A DNA stretch of 43,146 nt, from contig JAOACB010000018.1 in the NCBI GenBank assembly GCA_026418055.1, forward strand, positions 1-43,146. Direction: 5' to 3'. Source of the DNA: Fimbriimonadales bacterium. GTDB lineage: Bacteria; Armatimonadota; Fimbriimonadia; Fimbriimonadales; Fimbriimonadaceae. A program made the position numbers and the translations under genes. Each line of letters begins with the position of its first letter. Positions within the stretch are counted from its first letter, which is position 1. Below the pieces are notes generated by a model. That model was not told where the DNA came from and did not search any database. It saw only the letters and a list, made by a program, of their open reading frames with translations. Below are positions 5,687 through 17,224 of the stretch, piece after piece.

Positions 5687-7753
5687 CTACTCCCGGACAG
5701 GGGGAGGAGGTCCCACCGCGGCGTCCTCCGACGCGAACTCGGGTCCGGCTTGGAACACCTGCGGCGGCAACTCGTCGAGGGTCATCTCCCTCGCCCGCGG
5801 CAGGGGCCGCTCGTCGGAGAGCGTTCGAACGAACTCCACCCCGGGCAGCGGCTGGAAGCGGAACACCAGCTGCGAGCGCGTGCCCAGGACGAACCTCTCG
5901 AACCTTCGCCGCACGTTTTGGGCCAACGCGGGGTTCCGCAGCGTGGCGAGCTCCACGGCGGACAGCGCGACCTTCGACCCCGTGTTGGGGTCGATGCCGA
6001 ACGCCACGGGTTGCTGGGCGACCATCAGCGCCACGGGCGTGGCGGGCGGCATGCCCTCCGGAAGCAACTCGGTGGGGTCGGGCTGCCCCATCGGACCCAT
6101 CAGCATCGGCGGTCCTCCACGCATCCGCAGGCCCGTGCGGCCAGCCAAGAGCATCGCCTGGGTGGCGATCGACCGTGCCGACGGTCCGAGGCTGCCCAGG
6201 GGCAGCACCCTGCCGGACGCCAGGGCCCGAAGGTTGGCCTGGCCCAGAGCCGAGTAGAACGCCAGCATGGCCCGCTCGGAGGTTGTCTGCTCCTGCTCCT
6301 GGTGGCCCGGCAGGGAGATGCCGAGCAGGTTCTCGTAGGCACGATCCAAGCCGTCGGGGAAGCCTCCGTTCGGCATCTGGCGGACATAGGCGGCCTTCTG
6401 GTCGAGGTTCAGACCCGCCTGCGATCGGTGGAGGCGCAGAGCGGCGGCCAGCGTCCGGCGGTCGATCCTTTCGGCGCGAGCCAGCAAGGGCCGGGCAGGG
6501 CCCACCACGAGCCAGCCTCCGTCCAGCTCGCTGGAGAGGCCCCAGCTTTCCGCCGCCACGCGCAGCGCTTCGTTGGCGGACCGTACGCGTTGCAGATCGC
6601 CGAACTTGGAGAAGGCTCGGTCCGACAGCCAGGCCGCCAGATTCACGTTCGCCGCTTCGGCGACCGCCTGCAGCACGGGTCCGGCGGCGAGCGAGTGAGG
6701 CTCCACGGTGTCCGGGCTGGTCAGGATCTGCTGCCACTCGTCCGAGAGCCTTGCGCCGGGGGAGCGGGCGAGCTGCCCGGGGACCGCCACGGCCGACACC
6801 GCGACGCCCTCGGCCACGGAAACCTCCGGGCGGGCAACCTGCACGGACGCCGCGTCGGGGGAGGACACGGCCGCCAGCATGCGGGCCAGCTCCGCCGCTC
6901 GGGCTGGGATCTCGAACCTGGCCGAGTCGGGCAGGGTTGCGGCAACGGCCCCGAAGGCGGTGCGGACCACCGACGTGCGCATGGCTCCCCACGCAACCCG
7001 ACCGGCGGCGTCGAGCGCCTGGAACTCGAGCACCAGCAGGCGGTCCTGCGGCATCGGCAGGTGGGCCACGTCGAGCAGCGCCTTGACCACGGGCTCGGTC
7101 GAGGGCCTCATCCCAGGCGGTCCCTGGGGCGGGCCCTGTTCGGCCTGTTGCCGCAACCTGGCCTCGTTGTCGCGCTGGGCCCGCGCGATCTCCCTCTCGG
7201 CCGCCGCCAGGGTGGCGCGAGGCATCGCCAGCTGCAGGCGGTTCGGAGAAGAGGCGAACACCACGCGCTGGTTCGGCTGGAGGGACGCCAGCACCGACGG
7301 GTCCAACGTGGCCGCGAGCCGCGAGGCCGGCTCGTCCTCGCCGGGCGTCGCGCCGGGCGTGCCCAGCGCCGCCCGGATCTCAGCGACCGCGGCCTTGGCC
7401 TCCTCCGCCGCCAACCGGCGGGCGAGATCGGAGCCGACCGTCAGGCGGTGCTGGCCTTGCTCCGCCCTCCATTCGGCGCGCATCGCCTTGGCGATCCGAT
7501 CCATCGCTTCTCGGACGGTTGCGTCCTTCAACCGCAGCGAAACGACCTCGTTCTCGAGCGCCTTGAGCGGGACGAAGGTGTATCCGGCGGCCTTGGACAG
7601 CTCCTGCAGGGCCGAGCGCAGGGGAGCGGCGACCACCGTCACCGAGACCTTTCGCTCCGGGTCCAGCTGCTGGCACGGCGCGGGGGCCGGCCAAGCGGCG
7701 AGAGCCGCGAGCAACGGCAGAGCACGCAGCGATCGAACCATGGCTTCTCTCAT
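5687..7753 (-). CDS. Secreted protein with two STN-like domains
   Basis: This 688-residue protein has an N-terminal signal peptide (hydrophobic stretch about residues 8-25). Residues about 35-107 look like an STN domain, the small fold found at the N termini of secretins and TonB receptors: a first strand, ALQELSKAAGYTF, then a VSLRLKDATVREAMDRIA helix. A second STN-like segment lies near residues 355-440. There is no secretin or beta-barrel domain after them. The C-terminal part is rich in Pro, Met and Gly and ends in a PPPP tract. The ATG at 7753 is chosen because it overlaps the corC stop as ATGA (7750-7753). The open frame extends much further upstream, but only inside corC. The role is unknown; a periplasmic or envelope-associated scaffold is plausible. 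Confidence 0.8.
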   Translation of the reverse strand: MREAMVRSLRALPLLAALAAWPAPAPCQQLDPERKVSVTVVAAPLRSALQELSKAAGYTFVPLKALENEVVSLRLKDATVREAMDRIAKAMRAEWRAEQGQHRLTVGSDLARRLAAEEAKAAVAEIRAALGTPGATPGEDEPASRLAATLDPSVLASLQPNQRVVFASSPNRLQLAMPRATLAAAEREIARAQRDNEARLRQQAEQGPPQGPPGMRPSTEPVVKALLDVAHLPMPQDRLLVLEFQALDAAGRVAWGAMRTSVVRTAFGAVAATLPDSARFEIPARAAELARMLAAVSSPDAASVQVARPEVSVAEGVAVSAVAVPGQLARSPGARLSDEWQQILTSPDTVEPHSLAAGPVLQAVAEAANVNLAAWLSDRAFSKFGDLQRVRSANEALRVAAESWGLSSELDGGWLVVGPARPLLARAERIDRRTLAAALRLHRSQAGLNLDQKAAYVRQMPNGGFPDGLDRAYENLLGISLPGHQEQEQTTSERAMLAFYSALGQANLRALASGRVLPLGSLGPSARSIATQAMLLAGRTGLRMRGGPPMLMGPMGQPDPTELLPEGMPPATPVALMVAQQPVAFGIDPNTGSKVALSAVELATLRNPALAQNVRRRFERFVLGTRSQLVFRFQPLPGVEFVRTLSDERPLPRAREMTLDELPPQVFQAGPEFASEDAAVGPPPPVRE

Positions 7754-10538: not shown

Positions 10539-10706
10539 TCAGCGCGCGCGGGAGCGGCGCCGCTGGCGGCGGCGCTTCTCGCTCGGCTTCTCGTAGTGCG
10601 CGTGCTCCTTGAGCTCCCGGAGCAGGCCGCTCTGCTGCAGCTTCATGTTGAAGCGCTTGATCGCGGCGTCGATCGACTCTCCGGGTTGCACGATCACGTA
10701 AACCAA
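10539..10706 (-). CDS. rpsU: 30S ribosomal protein S21
   Basis: This is small-subunit protein S21, about 55 residues, needed for translation initiation. The sequence has the VYVIVQPGESIDAAIKRFN core and the very basic C-terminal tail (KRRRQRRRSRAR). The start is TTG at 10706: GGAGGAG lies 8 bases upstream, and the protein then begins exactly where S21 homologues do. A longer frame reaching 10760 would add a non-homologous leader inside the OGT gene and is not favoured. It has its own promoter (CATAAT at 10731-10736) at the end of the upstream glycosyltransferase gene, so it need not depend on that operon. Confidence 0.93.
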   Translation of the reverse strand: MVYVIVQPGESIDAAIKRFNMKLQQSGLLRELKEHAHYEKPSEKRRRQRRRSRAR

Positions 10707-10730: not shown

Positions 10731-10760
10731 ATTATGGTCGTTCGGTGGCCTTGGCCGCAA
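10731..10760 (-). promoter_or_regulatory. Promoter of rpsU
   Basis: On the minus strand TTGCGG (10760-10755) and CATAAT (10736-10731) are 18 bases apart. Transcription would start near 10724, giving a short leader of about 18 bases that contains the GGAGGAG ribosome binding site. The box overlaps the stop of the upstream OGT gene. Confidence 0.6.
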
Positions 10761-12474
10761 GGACCTCGAGAGCGTCGGACAGCGCTCCGCACCAAGCTTG
10801 CTCGTTGCAGAGCGGCGAATCGCGGAACTGTTCCACCCTGCGAGGCCGGTCGCCCAGCCCGCTCTCCAGCAGGCGCAGAGCCGTCGGGACGTACAGCTCG
10901 AGGCTGGAAGCCACCTCGTGCCCGAAGCCTGCCCAGCGCAGCAACGCCGCGGACATCCGGTGCGCGTAGCCCGGTCCCTCCAGGGTGGCGACCGGAACCC
11001 CCAGGGCCAGCGGGTCCAGGGTGGTGGTCGCTCCGGTGTATGGGAAGGCGTCCAGCACCAGGCTGGCCTCCGCGATCTCGCGCAAGGCCTCGCTCCGCCC
11101 CGCCCACGGCACGAAGCGCAGAGCCTCAGGGTTTCCCCCCGCCTCGGCGAACAGGCGCCTCACCCGCTCCCGGGCGCGCTCCGACCGCCAGGAGCCGTAC
11201 AGCAGGCGGATCTCGAGGCAGGGTGCCCGGGCGCTCAGCTTCGCCCACTGGCCGACGGCCGTCGGGCTGACCTTGGCGGGGTTGGCCAGCACCAGCGCCA
11301 CCGGGCGCCCGCGCTCGGGCCGCGCGCGGGGAGTCTCCTCCTCGCTCCAACACACGAACGGAGCGCTCAGCGTCAGCACCGATTCCGTGTACAGCGCGGC
11401 GTCCTCGCTCGGGGCGAGGAACGGATCGGCGATCATCGCGTCCATCTGCGGAAGGCCCGTCGTGCCCGGGAACCCCAGGAAGGCGGCCAGGGCGCGGGCT
11501 GGCTTGCGCGCCAGAGCCGGCAGGCGGCCGCCCGCGGTGTGGCCCGCTAGGTCGACCAGCACGTCCAGACCGTCCTCCGCCAGCGTGCCGGCCAGCCGCT
11601 CGTCGGGCATCCCCGCGACGTCCCGCCAGGCGTCCGCCAAGGAACGCAACCGATCGGTGCGTGCGTCTCGTCGTCCCGAGGCGTTGTAGGCGAACACCTC
11701 GATGCGGCTTCGGTCCAGTCCGCGGAACGCCGGCTCGATGAAGCGCCCGACCGGGTGCTCGCGCAGGTCGGGCGAGAGGAAGCCCACTCGGAGGCGCCCG
11801 CCGCGGGGGGTCCTCGGGCGCATCCTCGGAGCGGCGGCGTGCCGCATGCCCCAGAGCTGCGCCTTGCAGGTCAGCTCATCGGCGGGAAGCGCGTCCGAGC
11901 AAGGGATGGTGAACAGCAGGTTGCTCCAGGCGCCCTCGCGGTCGGGGTCGAGGGCGAGCGCCGTGGCGAAAGCCTCCAAAGCCTCGTCGACGCAGCCGGC
12001 CGCGCGGAGCGCGCAACCGAGCGCGTCCCAGGCGGCGGGTTGCGAGCGGTCCAACGCGAGGCACCGCTCGACGTCCTCGAGGGCTCCGTCCAGGTCGTCC
12101 ATGCCGAGCCTCGACAGCGAGCGGTTGAGCCAGGCGGGGGAGAACGATGGGTCGGCCTCCGTCGCCCGAGCGGCCGCCCGCTCGGCTTCGACCGCGGCGC
12201 CGCGATCCAGCAGCACGGCCGCCAAGGCGCTCCAGCCTGCGGCCCGTCGCGGCGCCAGCTCGCACGAGCGGCGCAGCGCCCGCTCGGCTTCGGAAGTCTC
12301 GCCCGATTCCCGCAACAGGACGCCCAGATTGCCCCAGGCCTCACCGTTGCAGGGATCCAGGCGCAAGCTGCGCCGCAGCAGCCCCACGGCCTCCCGCAGC
12401 CTCCCCGAGCCGTAGGCTTCCAGGGCCTGACGATGCAGTCGGTCGGATTGGCGGCTGGCTGGGAGACTGGGCAT
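10732..12474 (-). CDS. TPR protein with OGT/SPINDLY-type glycosyltransferase domain (paralogue 1)
   Basis: About four or five TPR repeats (residues 10-185) are followed by a glycosyltransferase family 41 domain of the O-GlcNAc transferase type. Visible motifs are LREHPVGRF, LVDLAGHTAGGRLP, the LANPAKVSP segment with the lysine equivalent to the sugar-nucleotide-binding Lys of human OGT, and LDAFPYTGATTT. It is the most diverged of three tandem paralogues: FNNP has become LANP, and the usual LVLK strand is IRLL. The likely role is transfer of a GlcNAc-like sugar to Ser/Thr of proteins. It starts 10 bases after paralogue 2 stops, so the two are one transcript. The target protein is not apparent in the window. 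Confidence 0.88.
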   Translation of the reverse strand: MPSLPASRQSDRLHRQALEAYGSGRLREAVGLLRRSLRLDPCNGEAWGNLGVLLRESGETSEAERALRRSCELAPRRAAGWSALAAVLLDRGAAVEAERAAARATEADPSFSPAWLNRSLSRLGMDDLDGALEDVERCLALDRSQPAAWDALGCALRAAGCVDEALEAFATALALDPDREGAWSNLLFTIPCSDALPADELTCKAQLWGMRHAAAPRMRPRTPRGGRLRVGFLSPDLREHPVGRFIEPAFRGLDRSRIEVFAYNASGRRDARTDRLRSLADAWRDVAGMPDERLAGTLAEDGLDVLVDLAGHTAGGRLPALARKPARALAAFLGFPGTTGLPQMDAMIADPFLAPSEDAALYTESVLTLSAPFVCWSEEETPRARPERGRPVALVLANPAKVSPTAVGQWAKLSARAPCLEIRLLYGSWRSERARERVRRLFAEAGGNPEALRFVPWAGRSEALREIAEASLVLDAFPYTGATTTLDPLALGVPVATLEGPGYAHRMSAALLRWAGFGHEVASSLELYVPTALRLLESGLGDRPRRVEQFRDSPLCNEQAWCGALSDALEVLAAKATERP

Positions 12475-12484
12475 GGTTCCGCGA

Positions 12485-14578
12485 TCAGGCCACGGCGCGT
12501 CGCGCTCCCTGGCGCAACAGGGCCTCGCACAGGTCTTGGAAGCTCCGGGCGAAGCGGGCGCCGTCGGCCATGGGAGAGGAGGCGGCGCGCTCGCACAGGT
12601 GGTCTCGCAACCCTGCCAGCCTACCGTCGTTGCGGGCCAGCTCGATCGCGAGGCGGACGTACTCCGAGCGGTCGCGCGCGACCAGTTCGCCGAGGCCGAC
12701 GCTCCGAAGGAAGCTCTCGCTGCAGCGGCCAGCGTAGCGGTCGCCGCGCAGCGTCAGCACCGGAACGCCCATCAAAAGGCTCTCGGCCGTGGTGGTGGCC
12801 CCTCCGTAGGGGAACGGATCCAGCGCCAGGTCGATCGAAGTGTAAAGGGCGAAGTGCGTGCGGCGATCCGTCGGCCCGAGGATCTGCAGCTGCTCCACCG
12901 AGACCCCGTGCCTCAGGAACCGCGCCGCGAACCACTCCGCCACCCTGGGCGAGCGGAAGGGCAGCGACTTGAGCACCAGCTGGCTGTGGGGAAGGGCCGT
13001 CAGGATCTCCGACCACACCGCGACGGTCTCGTCCGAGAGCTTCGCGGGGTTGTTGAAGCAACCGAAGCGGAAGCCGTCTCGGCCCAAGGCCGGGGGACGC
13101 TCGGTTTCGCGCGCCTCGGGCGGCACGCCCAGGCAGGCGAAGCACTCGGGCAACCGAGCGATCCGCTCGGTGTAGAACGGCTCGTCCTCGGGCGGCACCG
13201 TCGTGGAGTCCGCGATCAGGTAGTCGATCGCATCCAAACCGGTGGTCGCCGGGTAGCCGAGCCAGCTCGCTTGGACCGGCGCGGGTCGGAGGGAGAACAG
13301 CTGCAGGCTGTGGTGCGCCGTGTGCCCGGACAGGTCGACGAGGAGGTCGATGCCGTCCTCGCGCACCATCTCAGCGGCCTGGGCTGGCGTGAGCGGGTGG
13401 ATGTTGCGCCATCCTCCGGCCAGGGACCGCAACCTTGCGGACAGGTCGTCCTGCTCGTTGTGGTTGCTGTAGAGCACGACCTCGGCACGTTCGGCATCCC
13501 AGTTCTCGAGCAACGGCAACAGGAAGTAGCCGACGGGGTGTCGCCTCAGGTCTCCCGACACGAAGCCGATGCGGGGCCTCCTGGTTTCCTCCGGCTCGCG
13601 CCGCGCGGGAGGCAGCGGTCTCAGGGCGAACCGCTCGGCCCATGCCTTCGAGGCCTCCAGCAGGTCGGCCTGCGTGGTTGAGGAGAGGTACAGCCGGTGG
13701 AACAGCGCGTTCGAGGCTAGGCACGGGTCGTCCGGGGCCAGCGCCGACGCCTTCTCGAAGCAGGAGATGGCTTCACGGATCTCGGCGCACCCTGCCAGCA
13801 CGTTTCCCATGGTGTTGTAGGCTTCGGCGGCGTCCGGCTGCAGGCGGATGGCGGCCTGCGCAAGGCTCATCGCCTCGTCCAGGCGGCCCGTGGCCTGCAG
13901 CAGCGTGGCGAGGCCGGAGAGGGCCTTGGGATAGCGCGGCTCCAGGGCCAGCGCCCGCCGGTAGGCCTCCTCGGCGACTTCGAGCCTGCCTTGCACGGTG
14001 AGCGCGAGCGCGCGGTTGTTCCAGGCCTTGGCCTGCGCGGGCTCTAGGCGCAAGGCCTCGTCGATGGCCTCGGTCGCCTCGGCGATGCGGTTCAGTTCGA
14101 GCAGGGCCGAACCCAGGTTGTTCCAGCAGGCCGCCCAGTCGGCGCGCAGCTGCAGCGCCATGCGGTAGGCCGCCACCGCTTCGCTCCAACGCCTGCGCTC
14201 CAACTCCGCGTTGCCGAGGTTGTACCAAGCGTCCGCCAGCTCAGGGTTCAACTGGATCGCCTTCCGGCAGGCCTCCGCGGCGTCGTCGTGGCGGGACAGG
14301 CCCATCAGCGCCCCGCTCAGGTTGCTCCAGAACTCCGCCCTCGGTTCGCGCTCGATGGCCCCGCGGATGAGCCGCTCCGCCGCGGCGCAGTCGCCGGCCT
14401 GCAGGCGCAGCACGCCCAGCAGGTGCTGCGCGTCGGCCAGGTCAGGGTCGGCCGCGGCCGCGGCCTGGTAGCGTCGCTCGGCCTCGTCCAGCCGGCCGCG
14501 CTGGTGCGCCTCCAGGCCGAGCATCAGGTGTTTCCGGGCCTGGTCCCGAGAGCCGGGAAAGGGGCGAGGGGCGCTCAT
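12485..14578 (-). CDS. TPR protein with OGT/SPINDLY-type glycosyltransferase domain (paralogue 2)
   Basis: This is the longest of the three paralogues, 697 residues. About eight to nine TPR repeats occupy residues 15-300, with typical WxNLGxAL and ALxLxP helices. A complete family 41 domain follows with LRRHPVGYF, LSGHTAHHSLQLF, WLGYPATTGLDAIDY, FNNPAKLSD and LDPFPYGGATTT. The ATG at 14578 is preceded by an AT-rich patch that is unusual in this GC-rich DNA. GATAAT at 14598-14603 could be a -10 box giving a leader of about 13 bases. The frame stays open far upstream, but that part lies inside paralogue 3 and has no TPR character. It is probably a cytoplasmic protein O-glycosyltransferase. Confidence 0.92.
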   Translation of the reverse strand: MSAPRPFPGSRDQARKHLMLGLEAHQRGRLDEAERRYQAAAAADPDLADAQHLLGVLRLQAGDCAAAERLIRGAIEREPRAEFWSNLSGALMGLSRHDDAAEACRKAIQLNPELADAWYNLGNAELERRRWSEAVAAYRMALQLRADWAACWNNLGSALLELNRIAEATEAIDEALRLEPAQAKAWNNRALALTVQGRLEVAEEAYRRALALEPRYPKALSGLATLLQATGRLDEAMSLAQAAIRLQPDAAEAYNTMGNVLAGCAEIREAISCFEKASALAPDDPCLASNALFHRLYLSSTTQADLLEASKAWAERFALRPLPPARREPEETRRPRIGFVSGDLRRHPVGYFLLPLLENWDAERAEVVLYSNHNEQDDLSARLRSLAGGWRNIHPLTPAQAAEMVREDGIDLLVDLSGHTAHHSLQLFSLRPAPVQASWLGYPATTGLDAIDYLIADSTTVPPEDEPFYTERIARLPECFACLGVPPEARETERPPALGRDGFRFGCFNNPAKLSDETVAVWSEILTALPHSQLVLKSLPFRSPRVAEWFAARFLRHGVSVEQLQILGPTDRRTHFALYTSIDLALDPFPYGGATTTAESLLMGVPVLTLRGDRYAGRCSESFLRSVGLGELVARDRSEYVRLAIELARNDGRLAGLRDHLCERAASSPMADGARFARSFQDLCEALLRQGARRAVA

Positions 14579-14597
14579 GATTTTGGGACTTAGCAAA

Positions 14598-14603
14598 ATT
14601 ATC
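14598..14603 (-). promoter_or_regulatory. -10 box before OGT paralogue 2
   Basis: GATAAT on the minus strand lies in a 44-base AT-rich gap and 19 bases before the ATG at 14578. The direct repeat ATCGGGAC occurs twice just upstream (near 14611 and 14642). This suggests an internal promoter of the OGT cluster. Confidence 0.4.
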
Positions 14604-14622
14604 GTGCAGGATCGGGACTTCC

Positions 14623-16344
14623 TCAGGCGGCTTTCCTCTCGAATCGGGACGTTAACAGGATTTCCTCGAGCGTCCTCGCGAAGGAACGAGGCTGGCAGAA
14701 AGCCGTGGAGGCCAGCGCGGGGCGAAGCTCCCTCCGCAGGCGCGCGAGCTCCGAGCCCGAGTCCGCCAGGCGCAACGCGCACAGCGCGAACTCGTCGGCG
14801 TCGTCGCAGGCCAGCTCCGGCAGGCCCGCCGCGCAGAGCATCGACGCGGACATCCGCGAGCAGTACCGATCGCCCGCACGAGTGACCACGGGCACGCCCA
14901 TCCACAGGCTCTCGAGCGTGGTGGTGGCGCCGCTGTAGGGGAAAGTATCGAGCATCAGGTCCACGTCGTCGAAGTCGGCGTGGCGGCGTTGCGGCGGGCT
15001 CCACGCCCGGGTCTCGATCCGGCAGGGAGCCACGCCGCGCTCGGCGAACCGCTCGATCCAGCGCGACCGCACGGCCTCGTCGGCGAAGAACTTGTACTTC
15101 AGCACGAGCCTCGAGTCCGGCATCGCCCGCAGCACCGCGCACCAGGCGTCGAGCGTCGCGGGGGAGATCTTGCCGGGGTTGTTGAAGCTGCCGAACGTGA
15201 CGAAGCCGTTCCGCTCGCACGGCGGTTGGCTCGGCTCCGGCAGATCATCGGGGGCGTCCCACGTGAGGAAGCTCGGCAGGCGAAGCGGGGTTTCGGTGAA
15301 CTCCCGGGTGCCAGGGGGTGCGACCACCGGGTCCACCAGCACGCCGTCGATCGCCGCCAGGCCCGTGGTGCCGGAGTAGCCCAGCCACGAGAGCTGCACC
15401 GCGGCGGGCTTCAGCGCGAACAGCGGCAGGCGGTTGCCCGCGGTGTGCCCCGAGAGGTCGATCAGCACGTCCACGCGCTGCTCCCGGATGCGCTCGGCCG
15501 CCCAAGCGTCGGGCAGGCCGGCGATGGGCACCCAGGCGTCGCACCAGCTTTGGATCCGTTGCGAGGCTTCGTCCCGAGCGGACGAGGTCGGGAACACCGC
15601 CACGCGGAAGCGGCGCCTGTCCAGCTCGCGCAGCACCGGTCCGGCGAAGAAGCCCACGGGGTGGGAACGCAAGTCGCCGGACACGAACCCGACGGTGATT
15701 CGGTCGTCGTTGCTCGGTTCTGGCGCCGGCGCCGGCGCGAACCTCCGGCCGTACCGCTCGGCCTCGGCGCGAAGGTCGCCGACGTCGGCTTGGTCGCTGC
15801 CGAGCATCAGGAACAGCAGGCTGCTGTGCGCCTCCAGACCCTCGGGCCGGCGGGCCAGGCCCCGCAGCAACCCGATCGCCTCGTCGGTCTGGCCGAAGGC
15901 CGGCAGCACGGCCGCGAGGTTGACCCTCGCGTCCGGCAGAGACGGGTCGAGGCGCAGCGCCTCGCGAGCCTGGGCCTCGGCGTCGGCCAGGCGGTCGAGG
16001 GGCCGCAGGCAGGCCGAGAGGTTGCTGCGGGCCACCGCCGAATTCGGCGCGAGCGCGACGGCGTTGGAGCAGGCCTCGGCGCCTTCCGCGAACTTCTCCA
16101 TCAGGCGGCAGGCGTTGCCCAGGTTGCTCCAGGCCTCGGCGTCGGTCGGCTGGGTTTCCAGCGAGCGCAGCAGCAGGTCCGCGCCCTCCGCCAGCCGGCC
16201 GACCTGGCACAGCAGCACGCCGAGCCCCTTCAGGGCTCCGGCGTTCCGGGGGTCTCTCCGAAGGGCTGCGGCGTACAGGTCCGACGCCTCGACCAGGCGG
16301 CCGCGGGAGTGGGCCTCCCAAGCCGATGCGAGCAGCGGGTCCAT
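14623..16344 (-). CDS. TPR protein with OGT/SPINDLY-type glycosyltransferase domain (paralogue 3)
   Basis: The 573-residue product has about five TPR repeats (residues 5-190) and then a family 41 domain. The domain shows LRSHPVGFF, LIDLSGHTAGNRLPLF, WLGYSGTTGLAAID, FNNPGKISP and LDTFPYSGATTT. The key His, Lys and Asp positions of OGT enzymes are kept, so it should be active. It is the first gene of the OGT cluster and is divergent from the methyltransferase gene at 16454. The ATG at 16344 is chosen because homology begins there. The frame can be extended to 16470, but that would cross the divergent promoter region and adds no TPR-like sequence. There is no signal peptide, so the protein should be cytoplasmic. 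Confidence 0.92.
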   Translation of the reverse strand: MDPLLASAWEAHSRGRLVEASDLYAAALRRDPRNAGALKGLGVLLCQVGRLAEGADLLLRSLETQPTDAEAWSNLGNACRLMEKFAEGAEACSNAVALAPNSAVARSNLSACLRPLDRLADAEAQAREALRLDPSLPDARVNLAAVLPAFGQTDEAIGLLRGLARRPEGLEAHSSLLFLMLGSDQADVGDLRAEAERYGRRFAPAPAPEPSNDDRITVGFVSGDLRSHPVGFFAGPVLRELDRRRFRVAVFPTSSARDEASQRIQSWCDAWVPIAGLPDAWAAERIREQRVDVLIDLSGHTAGNRLPLFALKPAAVQLSWLGYSGTTGLAAIDGVLVDPVVAPPGTREFTETPLRLPSFLTWDAPDDLPEPSQPPCERNGFVTFGSFNNPGKISPATLDAWCAVLRAMPDSRLVLKYKFFADEAVRSRWIERFAERGVAPCRIETRAWSPPQRRHADFDDVDLMLDTFPYSGATTTLESLWMGVPVVTRAGDRYCSRMSASMLCAAGLPELACDDADEFALCALRLADSGSELARLRRELRPALASTAFCQPRSFARTLEEILLTSRFERKAA

Positions 16345-16394
16345 CGCTCTACCTATCGGTGCGCGGAGCCTCGGCTTGGATGGGGTCGGGTCCA

Positions 16395-16410
16395 GTTTTC
16401 CGCCGAAAAC
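16395..16410. promoter_or_regulatory. Palindrome in the OGT/methyltransferase divergent region
   Basis: GTTTTC-CGCC-GAAAAC is a perfect inverted repeat in the 109-base space between the divergent starts at 16344 and 16454. It lies directly upstream of a possible -10 box (GACAAT, 16413-16418) of the methyltransferase gene. It has the form of a repressor operator; no matching regulator is known. Confidence 0.4.
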
Positions 16411-16423
16411 CCGACAATCCTGC

Positions 16424-16441
16424 CGGGGGATCGCTTCCCCG
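16424..16441 (+). other. Leader hairpin before the methyltransferase gene
   Basis: CGGGGGA and TTCCCCG can pair (one G-T pair) around a TCGC loop. The stem ends just before the GAGGAA ribosome binding site at 16445-16449 of the gene starting at 16454. It could modulate translation or be fortuitous in GC-rich DNA. Confidence 0.3.
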
Positions 16442-16453
16442 AACGAGGAATCT

Positions 16454-17224
16454 ATGGCCGCCCAACCCATGCCGGAACCGACGCCGCTCGCCGTGCAGGC
16501 GATGCGCTTTCCCTTCTGGTACCACCGGATCCAGCTTCCGGACGGATCCGTGACGCCCGGATGGGCCCCCCTGGTGCCCGAGGCCTACCGCATCCCCGAC
16601 GACCTGACCGGAGCCCGCGTGCTGGACGTGGGAGCCTGGGACGGTTACTGGACCTTCGAGGCTCTGCGGCGCGGCGCCCGCGAGGTGGTGGCGATCGACG
16701 ACTTCAGCGACCACCTCGGAAGCCTCCGGGAGTCCGACCGGCGCGCTTGGGAGACGTTCGACTTCTGCCGCGACGCGTTCGGCTACGGAGAGGACCGATG
16801 CAAGCGCATCGAGATGAGCGTGTACAACGTCAGCGAGGAGGCGCTGGGCCGCTTCGACCACGTGTTCTTCTTCGGCACGCTGTACCACCTGCGGTACCCG
16901 TTGCTCGCGCTGGACATCCTCAGCTCGGTGTGCGACGGCGACATCTGGATCGAGAGCGCGATCTGCGACGATTTCTCCGTGTACCGAGGCGGGCTCGGCC
17001 AGGGCTACCCCGGCGCGCAAGCCGTCATGGAGTTCTATCCCACCAGCGAGTACGGCAACAACCCGACCAACTGGTGGGCGCCGTCGCTCGCGTGCCTGGG
17101 CCTGATGGTGCTGGCGGCCGGCTTCCTGGACTTCGAGGTGTGGAAGCTGACCGACAACCCCCGGAGCCTGCCGGAATGCCGCGGCTTCGCGCACGGCAGC
17201 AAGGTGGGTCGCAGGCTGGGCTAG
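16454..17224 (+). CDS. Class I SAM-dependent methyltransferase, DUF1698/CmoB-like
   Basis: This is a 256-residue SAM-dependent methyltransferase. Motif I is VLDVGAWDGYWTFEALRRGA (about 57-76), followed by an acidic VVAIDD strand. The FFFGTLYHLRYPLLALD segment (138-154) and the C-terminal FYPTSEYGNNPTNWW segment are typical of the DUF1698/CmoB-like group, which includes tRNA-modifying enzymes and many methyltransferases near glycan genes. The ATG at 16454 follows GAGGAA. It is divergent from the three OGT genes, so a role in modifying glycans or the same targets is possible, but nothing proves it. It ends 3 bases before the convergent isomerase gene. Confidence 0.85.
   Translation: MAAQPMPEPTPLAVQAMRFPFWYHRIQLPDGSVTPGWAPLVPEAYRIPDDLTGARVLDVGAWDGYWTFEALRRGAREVVAIDDFSDHLGSLRESDRRAWETFDFCRDAFGYGEDRCKRIEMSVYNVSEEALGRFDHVFFFGTLYHLRYPLLALDILSSVCDGDIWIESAICDDFSVYRGGLGQGYPGAQAVMEFYPTSEYGNNPTNWWAPSLACLGLMVLAAGFLDFEVWKLTDNPRSLPECRGFAHGSKVGRRLG

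Follow-up and report, generated by a model that had tools for sequence, protein, structure and literature searches.

Two kinds of flagellin modification resembling the locus described here are already known: cytoplasmic glycosylation by enzymes carrying tetratricopeptide repeats (TPR), and genomic islands that combine several transferases with methyltransferases. FlmG of Caulobacter crescentus is a cytoplasmic TPR-type enzyme that glycosylates flagellin (PMC7591256), and some Clostridium islands contain TPR-bearing transferases (PMC13317340, PMC3927599). SPINDLY, the Arabidopsis O-fucosyltransferase, belongs to family GT41, whose SPINDLY-like members are described as conserved also among bacteria, with very few of them characterised (PMC10027727). 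For the bacterial enzyme TtOGT, O-GlcNAc activity was not found, according to PMC9715652. We analysed a 43,146-base contig of a Fimbriimonadales bacterium (JAOACB010000018.1, positions 1 to 43,146; the window), which is contig C44 of a 2.89-Mb genome in 135 contigs (G000). It carries three TPR–GT41 genes side by side, GT1, GT2 and GT3, and a methyltransferase gene facing them. We consider it probable that this array and its partner represent a flagellin glycosylation island of the Fimbriimonadaceae, which would transfer a sugar in the cytoplasm from a guanosine diphosphate (GDP)-sugar to Ser/Thr, the sugar being modified by the methyltransferase.

The tandem array and its methyltransferase partner

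The original prediction, made from the sequence of the window, described three TPR–GT41 genes in tandem on one strand with 10- and 44-base gaps. The open reading frames (ORFs) and Pfam agree with this: each gene encodes TPR repeats and a PF13844 domain (cut-off 25 bits), and the ORFs are separated by 10 bases (12475-12484) and 44 bases (14579-14622). Genes were called by codon-score scripts written for this analysis, which shortened some starts, so that the called gaps differ from these values; in loci L202-L204, of lower GC, genes were located by tblastn instead. No GT41 genes other than these three were found in their genome, all six matches falling within the window. A homologue aligning along the full length of GT2 was found on a contig of an uncultured Fimbriimonadaceae bacterium (73% identity in the best segment).

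Within the order, 19 of 61 genomes have GT41 genes, and every one of them belongs to the same family; 29 GT41 loci were fetched and gene-called for neighbourhood comparison. In a first set of eight genomes (G000, G002, G005, G009, G011, G016, G017 and G034), the methyltransferase gene stands head-to-head with two to four tandem GT41 genes. Matches to the methyltransferase profile were confined to Fimbriimonadaceae (9/61 genomes of the order, 16/291 of the phylum Armatimonadota), and seven of these 16 genomes, first encountered after the idea of a flagellin target had arisen, served as a held-out set. The head-to-head array is present in six of them (G148, G149, G154, G157, G155 and G172) and absent in G147. 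Altogether, the methyltransferase faces a GT41 array in 14 of the 16 genomes that carry it. The exceptions are G147, where the gene lies at a contig edge and the array on a separate contig, and G023, a genome 72% complete, where the homologue (L194:4490-5245) lies on a 6-kb contig and no GT41 gene was found. The tandem set is thus conserved together with the methyltransferase, a point that the original prediction had proposed to check, and the lineage-specific scatter that it named as the refuting outcome is not observed. The methyltransferase is missing from genomes having solo or relict SPINDLY-type genes only (G003, G004, G022 and G031). A GT41 tree, in which array position and gene type agree partly and with low support, carries no weight as evidence.

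Tandem GT41 arrays also exist beyond this family. A metagenome-assembled genome of Proteobacteria contains four tandem relatives about 33% identical to GT2 (L036:2154-9953, JAJZHP010000020.1), and its fetched flanks contained no flagellin resembling the query flagellins.

The methyltransferase of the window (METHYLTRANSFERASE) shares 66-89% identity with six other aligned homologues. Its ratio of nonsynonymous to synonymous substitution rates (dN/dS), 0.125, indicates slower evolution than that of the glycosyltransferases (GT1 0.34, GT2 0.24, GT3 0.33). Its AlphaFold2 model has a predicted local distance difference test (pLDDT) score of 77, falling below 50 at residues 172-206. Foldseek placed EvdMO1, in a structure solved with S-adenosylhomocysteine and D-fucose, at the top (template modelling score 0.58) and CmoB second, nearly tied. 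Given the gene company, a sugar methyltransferase would be the simplest reading of this protein. Another possibility would be a tRNA-modifying relative of CmoB whose place next to the array has nothing to do with glycosylation, which would suit both the second rank by fold and an NCBIfam CmoB match, though the latter is far below its cut-off (45.8 versus 209 bits), as TIGR04290 is below its own. We regard this as quite unlikely, since the gene is confined to one family, faces an array in nearly every genome that has it and is missing from genomes with solo or relict genes only, a distribution too patchy for a housekeeping tRNA enzyme.

Donor sites and GDP-sugar supply

Among natural proteins in the PDB, the best full-length match of GT2 is SPINDLY (E 7e-117). 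Residues were read off alignments with SPINDLY and are given in its numbering, with meanings taken from PMC10027727 and PMC9715652. The catalytic Lys (K842 in human OGT, K665 in SPINDLY) is present in all three enzymes. GT2 also has K689, H728, Y744, T748 and E752, with Pro replacing S496 and Ala replacing T747, and GT3 has K689, Y744, T748 and E752, with Arg replacing H728. In SPINDLY, Lys689 contacts guanine, and the UDP-GlcNAc-using OGT is marked by L866, R904 and C917 (PMC10027727). The corresponding places are occupied by Lys/Leu/Tyr in GT2, Lys/Asp/Tyr in GT3 and Leu/Glu/Tyr in GT1, so that the OGT set is missing and a single OGT-like residue, the Leu, occurs in GT1 alone. At position 731, Ala in SPINDLY and Arg in OGT, GT1 has Glu, GT2 Leu and GT3 Asp, and Tyr744 is found in all three. 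The expectation of O-GlcNAc, detectable as a +203.08 shift, is therefore not supported: GT2 and GT3 have the GDP-fucose-type Lys, all three have the Tyr and none has the Arg. A deoxyhexose adds +146.06 and a methyl-deoxyhexose +160.07. Judging from the donor-site residues, these would be the first glycan shifts to expect, rather than N-acetylhexosamine.

The same pattern extends over a comparison set of 40 array enzymes and 10 solo enzymes, with the relict-looking genes of G003 (L060_g5) and G031 (L057_g5) tallied separately. Lys689 is present in 35 of the 40 array enzymes (20/23 in the first set, 15/17 in the held-out set), Tyr744 in 40/40 and the OGT-type Arg in none; the five without Lys689 are distal members, from G000, G001, G002, G149 and G157. 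At the S496 place, all 39 array enzymes with a letter have Pro, versus Ser kept in 9/10 solo SPINDLY-type enzymes. At the T747 place, 39/40 array enzymes have Ala and one has Gly, versus Thr in all ten solo enzymes. Because Lys689 and Tyr744 are kept while S496 and T747 are replaced, the array enzymes appear to retain the GDP site with an altered sugar site.

The supply of GDP-sugars is consistent with this. Of the 13 family genomes that have SPINDLY-type genes, 12 contain a gmd match exceeding the cut-off, compared with 10 of the 24 others, an association whose p of 0.004 assumes independent genomes, which relatives are not, and is taken as supporting only. In the genome of the window, gmd is followed by an adjoining GDP-L-fucose synthase gene (fcl) interrupted by the contig end; the fragment scores 307.9 bits, against a cut-off of 500 set for the whole protein.

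A FlmG-type system would add pseudaminic or a related nonulosonic acid to flagellin, likewise by a TPR-type glycosyltransferase (PMC7591256). NeuB was searched in seven array genomes, the first set without G034, and strong matches were found in G005, G009 and G016; in the other four (G000, G002, G011 and G017), family matches were only weak (best 1e-11; G000, 1.0e-11), strong NeuB matches elsewhere ranging from 1e-67 to 1e-100. We presume that the weak matches may be DAHP synthases. With, in addition, a donor site that has the guanine-contacting Lys of enzymes using GDP-sugars, this explanation seems to us very unlikely. As for the Maf route, a search of 23 family genomes gave no above-threshold match to PF01973, and the array genes have PF13844; PF01973, now named MptE-like in Pfam, is linked to the Maf flagellin glycosyltransferases.

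GT1, the distal member, is the diverged third copy that the original prediction had noted: FNNP reads LANP and LVLK reads RLLY, with the catalytic Lys retained. It has lost Lys689 (to Leu), H728 and N661. The distal enzymes of G001 and G002 show the same changes at Lys689 and N661, with Cys at 728. Its AlphaFold2 model (mean pLDDT 90.9) best matches SPINDLY, with a Z of 48.8 over 576 residues at a root-mean-square deviation of 3.1, and TtOGT is next at 46.3. Since its dN/dS is near the values of GT2 and GT3 and the model is confident, GT1 is not apparently decayed. Its residues and model suggest that GT1 probably still functions, though in altered form, and the changed donor site hints that it perhaps uses another donor.

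Other GT41 genes of the family were also observed. A second type, kept out of the argument, comprises 14 genes in different neighbourhoods, whose products lack Lys689 and have Trp or Phe in place of Tyr744 (loci L043, L054-L056, L058 and L062-L068; genomes G008, G010, G014, G017, G018, G019 and G021). G004 carries seven SPINDLY-type genes over several loci (L050-L053), without the methyltransferase and with SPINDLY's own sugar contacts mostly retained.

Flagellin linkage in relatives

In 9 of the 14 arrays whose distal flank is visible, our neighbourhood comparison revealed a flagellin gene that meets the last GT41 gene tail-to-tail. Flagellin adjoins in three of seven such arrays of the first set (G009, G011 and G016, with gaps of 61, 75 and 60 bases) and in six of seven of the held-out set (G148, G149, G154, G157, G172 and G147, not G155); G002, its distal flank cut by a contig end, is outside this count. 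The order is fixed in each case: the methyltransferase pointing outwards, the GT41 array and the flagellin tail-to-tail. The longest shared order, in G172, reads addA-like, addB-like, c13, methyltransferase, GT, GT, flagellin, c12, c8 and selB-like, the labels being our own, from protein starts and sequence clusters. Flagellin-adjacent arrays span five of the seven genera having arrays; a binomial value for this treats relatives as independent, so we do not read it as a p-value. Because each genome has only about four PF00669 matches, the adjacency is far from chance, with shared ancestry as a caveat. The prediction that the targets lie outside the window and are specialised agrees with these results: the arrays of relatives are associated with a single type of target, flagellin, and the window encodes none. 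A stepwise relay of O-glycosylation, which the prediction gave as the alternative, is also possible. A type IV pilin was also considered as the target and rejected: a T2SSE-type ATPase lies near some GT41 genes, and the other neighbours appeared unrelated by eye, with no pilin seen.

In a tree of 84 flagellins, all eight array genomes of the first set are represented in one clade (support 1.0), which also contains members from G003, G026 and G031 and may partly reflect species relationships. The tree comprises strong matches from family genomes, one row (G002) being an 85-aa fragment, and lacks G014, G023, G032, G035 and G036 as well as part of the places listed for other genomes. At flagellin position Thr406 (L040), Thr occurs in 14/14 flagellins of the array-linked clade versus about 10% of the 69 others; it may mark the lineage or be a glycosylation target.

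The arrays might instead have a wide regulatory role, O-glycosylating numerous proteins of the cytoplasm like plant SPINDLY or animal OGT, with flagellin a mere neighbour or one of many targets. That the closest solved enzyme over the full length is a plant protein regulator favours such a role, as do the five of 14 arrays without adjacent flagellin and the seven genes of G004. However, a separate solo SPINDLY-type gene in array genomes G016 and G154 would fit it better, the one of G016 retaining the SPINDLY sugar contacts (the G154 gene was outside the residue scoring), and the array enzymes have their own signature besides their flagellin neighbours. We therefore hold broad regulation to be unlikely and prefer the flagellin glycosylation island.

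The array of the window itself looks displaced from the flagellin-linked module. Past the S21-like ORF on the GT1 side (Table 1) lie ybeY and genes for a DAGK/PAP2 protein and a CNNM/CorC protein. Elsewhere in the genome, contig C63 has a flagellin fragment at its end, then c12, c8 and selB-like as in G172; no array can be seen there. G157 has the S21-ybeY-DAGK-CNNM genes too, oriented differently from those of the window and no more than 10 kb away from a full array and its flagellin. Given the C63 neighbourhood and the G157 arrangement, the window would hold a displaced copy of the module.

Table 1. The array, its partner and the adjoining features in the window
Feature	Position	Strand	Size and basis
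Small ORF beyond GT1, S21-like ribosomal protein	10539-10706		Resemblance judged by eye
GT1, TPR + GT41 glycosyltransferase, distal array member	10732-12474	-	580 aa; PF13844 94.7 bits
GT2, long TPR + GT41 glycosyltransferase	12485-14578 (ATG at 14578)	-	697 aa; PF13844 149.1 bits
GT3, TPR + GT41 glycosyltransferase, beside the presumed divergent promoter region	14623-16344 (ATG at 16344)	-	573 aa; PF13844 136.4 bits
Intergenic region from which GT3 and the methyltransferase gene diverge; presumed divergent promoter	16345-16453	.	109 bases; gene coordinates
Methyltransferase, conserved partner of the array	16454-17224	+	256 aa; PF08003 37.1 bits versus cut-off 23.8

Farther away in the window, positions 5687-7741 encode a protein that is conserved in G001 and has a sub-threshold STN-domain match only (22.3 versus 28.4 bits).

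A proposed flagellin glycosylation island compared with known systems

In the proposed pathway, the TPR superhelix of the array enzymes would bind newly made flagellin in the cytoplasm, and the GT41 domain would transfer a sugar to Ser/Thr before export, most likely from a GDP-6-deoxyhexose, for example GDP-L-fucose or a related compound. The methyltransferase would methylate this sugar, either as nucleotide sugar or after transfer. Individual array members may specialise in different sites or different flagellin paralogues, or add a second sugar, and a distal enzyme without the guanine Lys, here GT1, would probably take another donor or perform a second step. A more specific version, which we put forward as possible though doubtful, is that the array enzymes form a SPINDLY-like branch with a sugar pocket rebuilt (Pro/Ala at S496/T747) to accept a GDP-6-deoxyhexose carrying an O-methyl group from the partner enzyme. 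In that case a SPINDLY-type pathway resembling O-fucosylation would act on bacterial flagellin, and the distal member, in which GDP recognition was repeatedly lost (genus g1, G149 and G157), would add a second, different sugar.

Several observations weigh against the proposed island. The array of the window is not beside a flagellin gene, an S21-like gene following it as in G001, and no flagellin adjacency was seen in G005, G034, G155 and G017. Flagellin is present in 57 of the 61 genomes and GT41 is absent from most of these, so the module is not required for flagella as such. G026 has an array-clade flagellin yet no GT41, and Ser/Thr richness was rejected as a mark of the target, showing no difference between the 14 clade flagellins and 69 others (p 0.32). 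When only the catalytic domain is compared, GT2 lies nearer to TtOGT than to SPINDLY, and fucose itself is uncertain as the donor sugar because the S496 and T747 contacts are lost. G031 has a relict SPINDLY-type gene without gmd, and the methyltransferase stretches of G147 and G155 contain one in-frame stop each.

If the proposal is true, flagellin would be glycosylated in the cytoplasm by a route needing neither Maf nor nonulosonic acids. The array, often beside its probable target, offers one concrete candidate substrate for a bacterial SPINDLY-like GT41. Moreover, the 40 array and 10 solo enzymes, which differ at known sugar contacts, make GT41 donor choice directly testable.

Among known systems, FlmG shares with the array enzymes the TPR and glycosyltransferase domains and the cytoplasmic setting, its flagellin target having a counterpart here by inference. 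It is a single enzyme needing pseudaminic acid (PMC7591256), unlike the two to four tandem enzymes described here, which have a GDP-type donor site and, in the genome of the window, no strong NeuB. TtOGT of Thermobaculum terrenum (PDB 5djs) is a bacterial TPR–GT41 enzyme with the solved catalytic domain closest to GT2 by sequence; it has Pro at the S496 place, as the array enzymes do, and, unlike GT2 and GT3, Ile in place of the guanine Lys. The flagellar glycosylation islands of Pseudomonas and Clostridium modify flagellin with glycosyltransferases and a methyltransferase, as we propose here, and employ Maf, GT2-type or fgt1/fgt2 enzymes, with no SPINDLY-like GT41 array described in the available parts of the papers. 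Searches of the open-access PMC literature likewise found no SPINDLY-like flagellin glycosylation system. SPINDLY (PDB 7y4i, 8dth and 8dti) has in common with the array enzymes the TPR superhelix and the GT41 domain, shares K665, K689, Y744 and T748 with GT2 and GT3, and is the best full-length structural match even for GT1. The array differs in being bacterial and tandem, in its methyltransferase partner and flagellin linkage, in the Pro/Ala at two fucose contacts and, in GT1, in the absence of K689. What is new is thus the combination, in Fimbriimonadaceae, of a SPINDLY-type GDP-sugar site, a tandem array, a dedicated methyltransferase and a linkage to flagellin.

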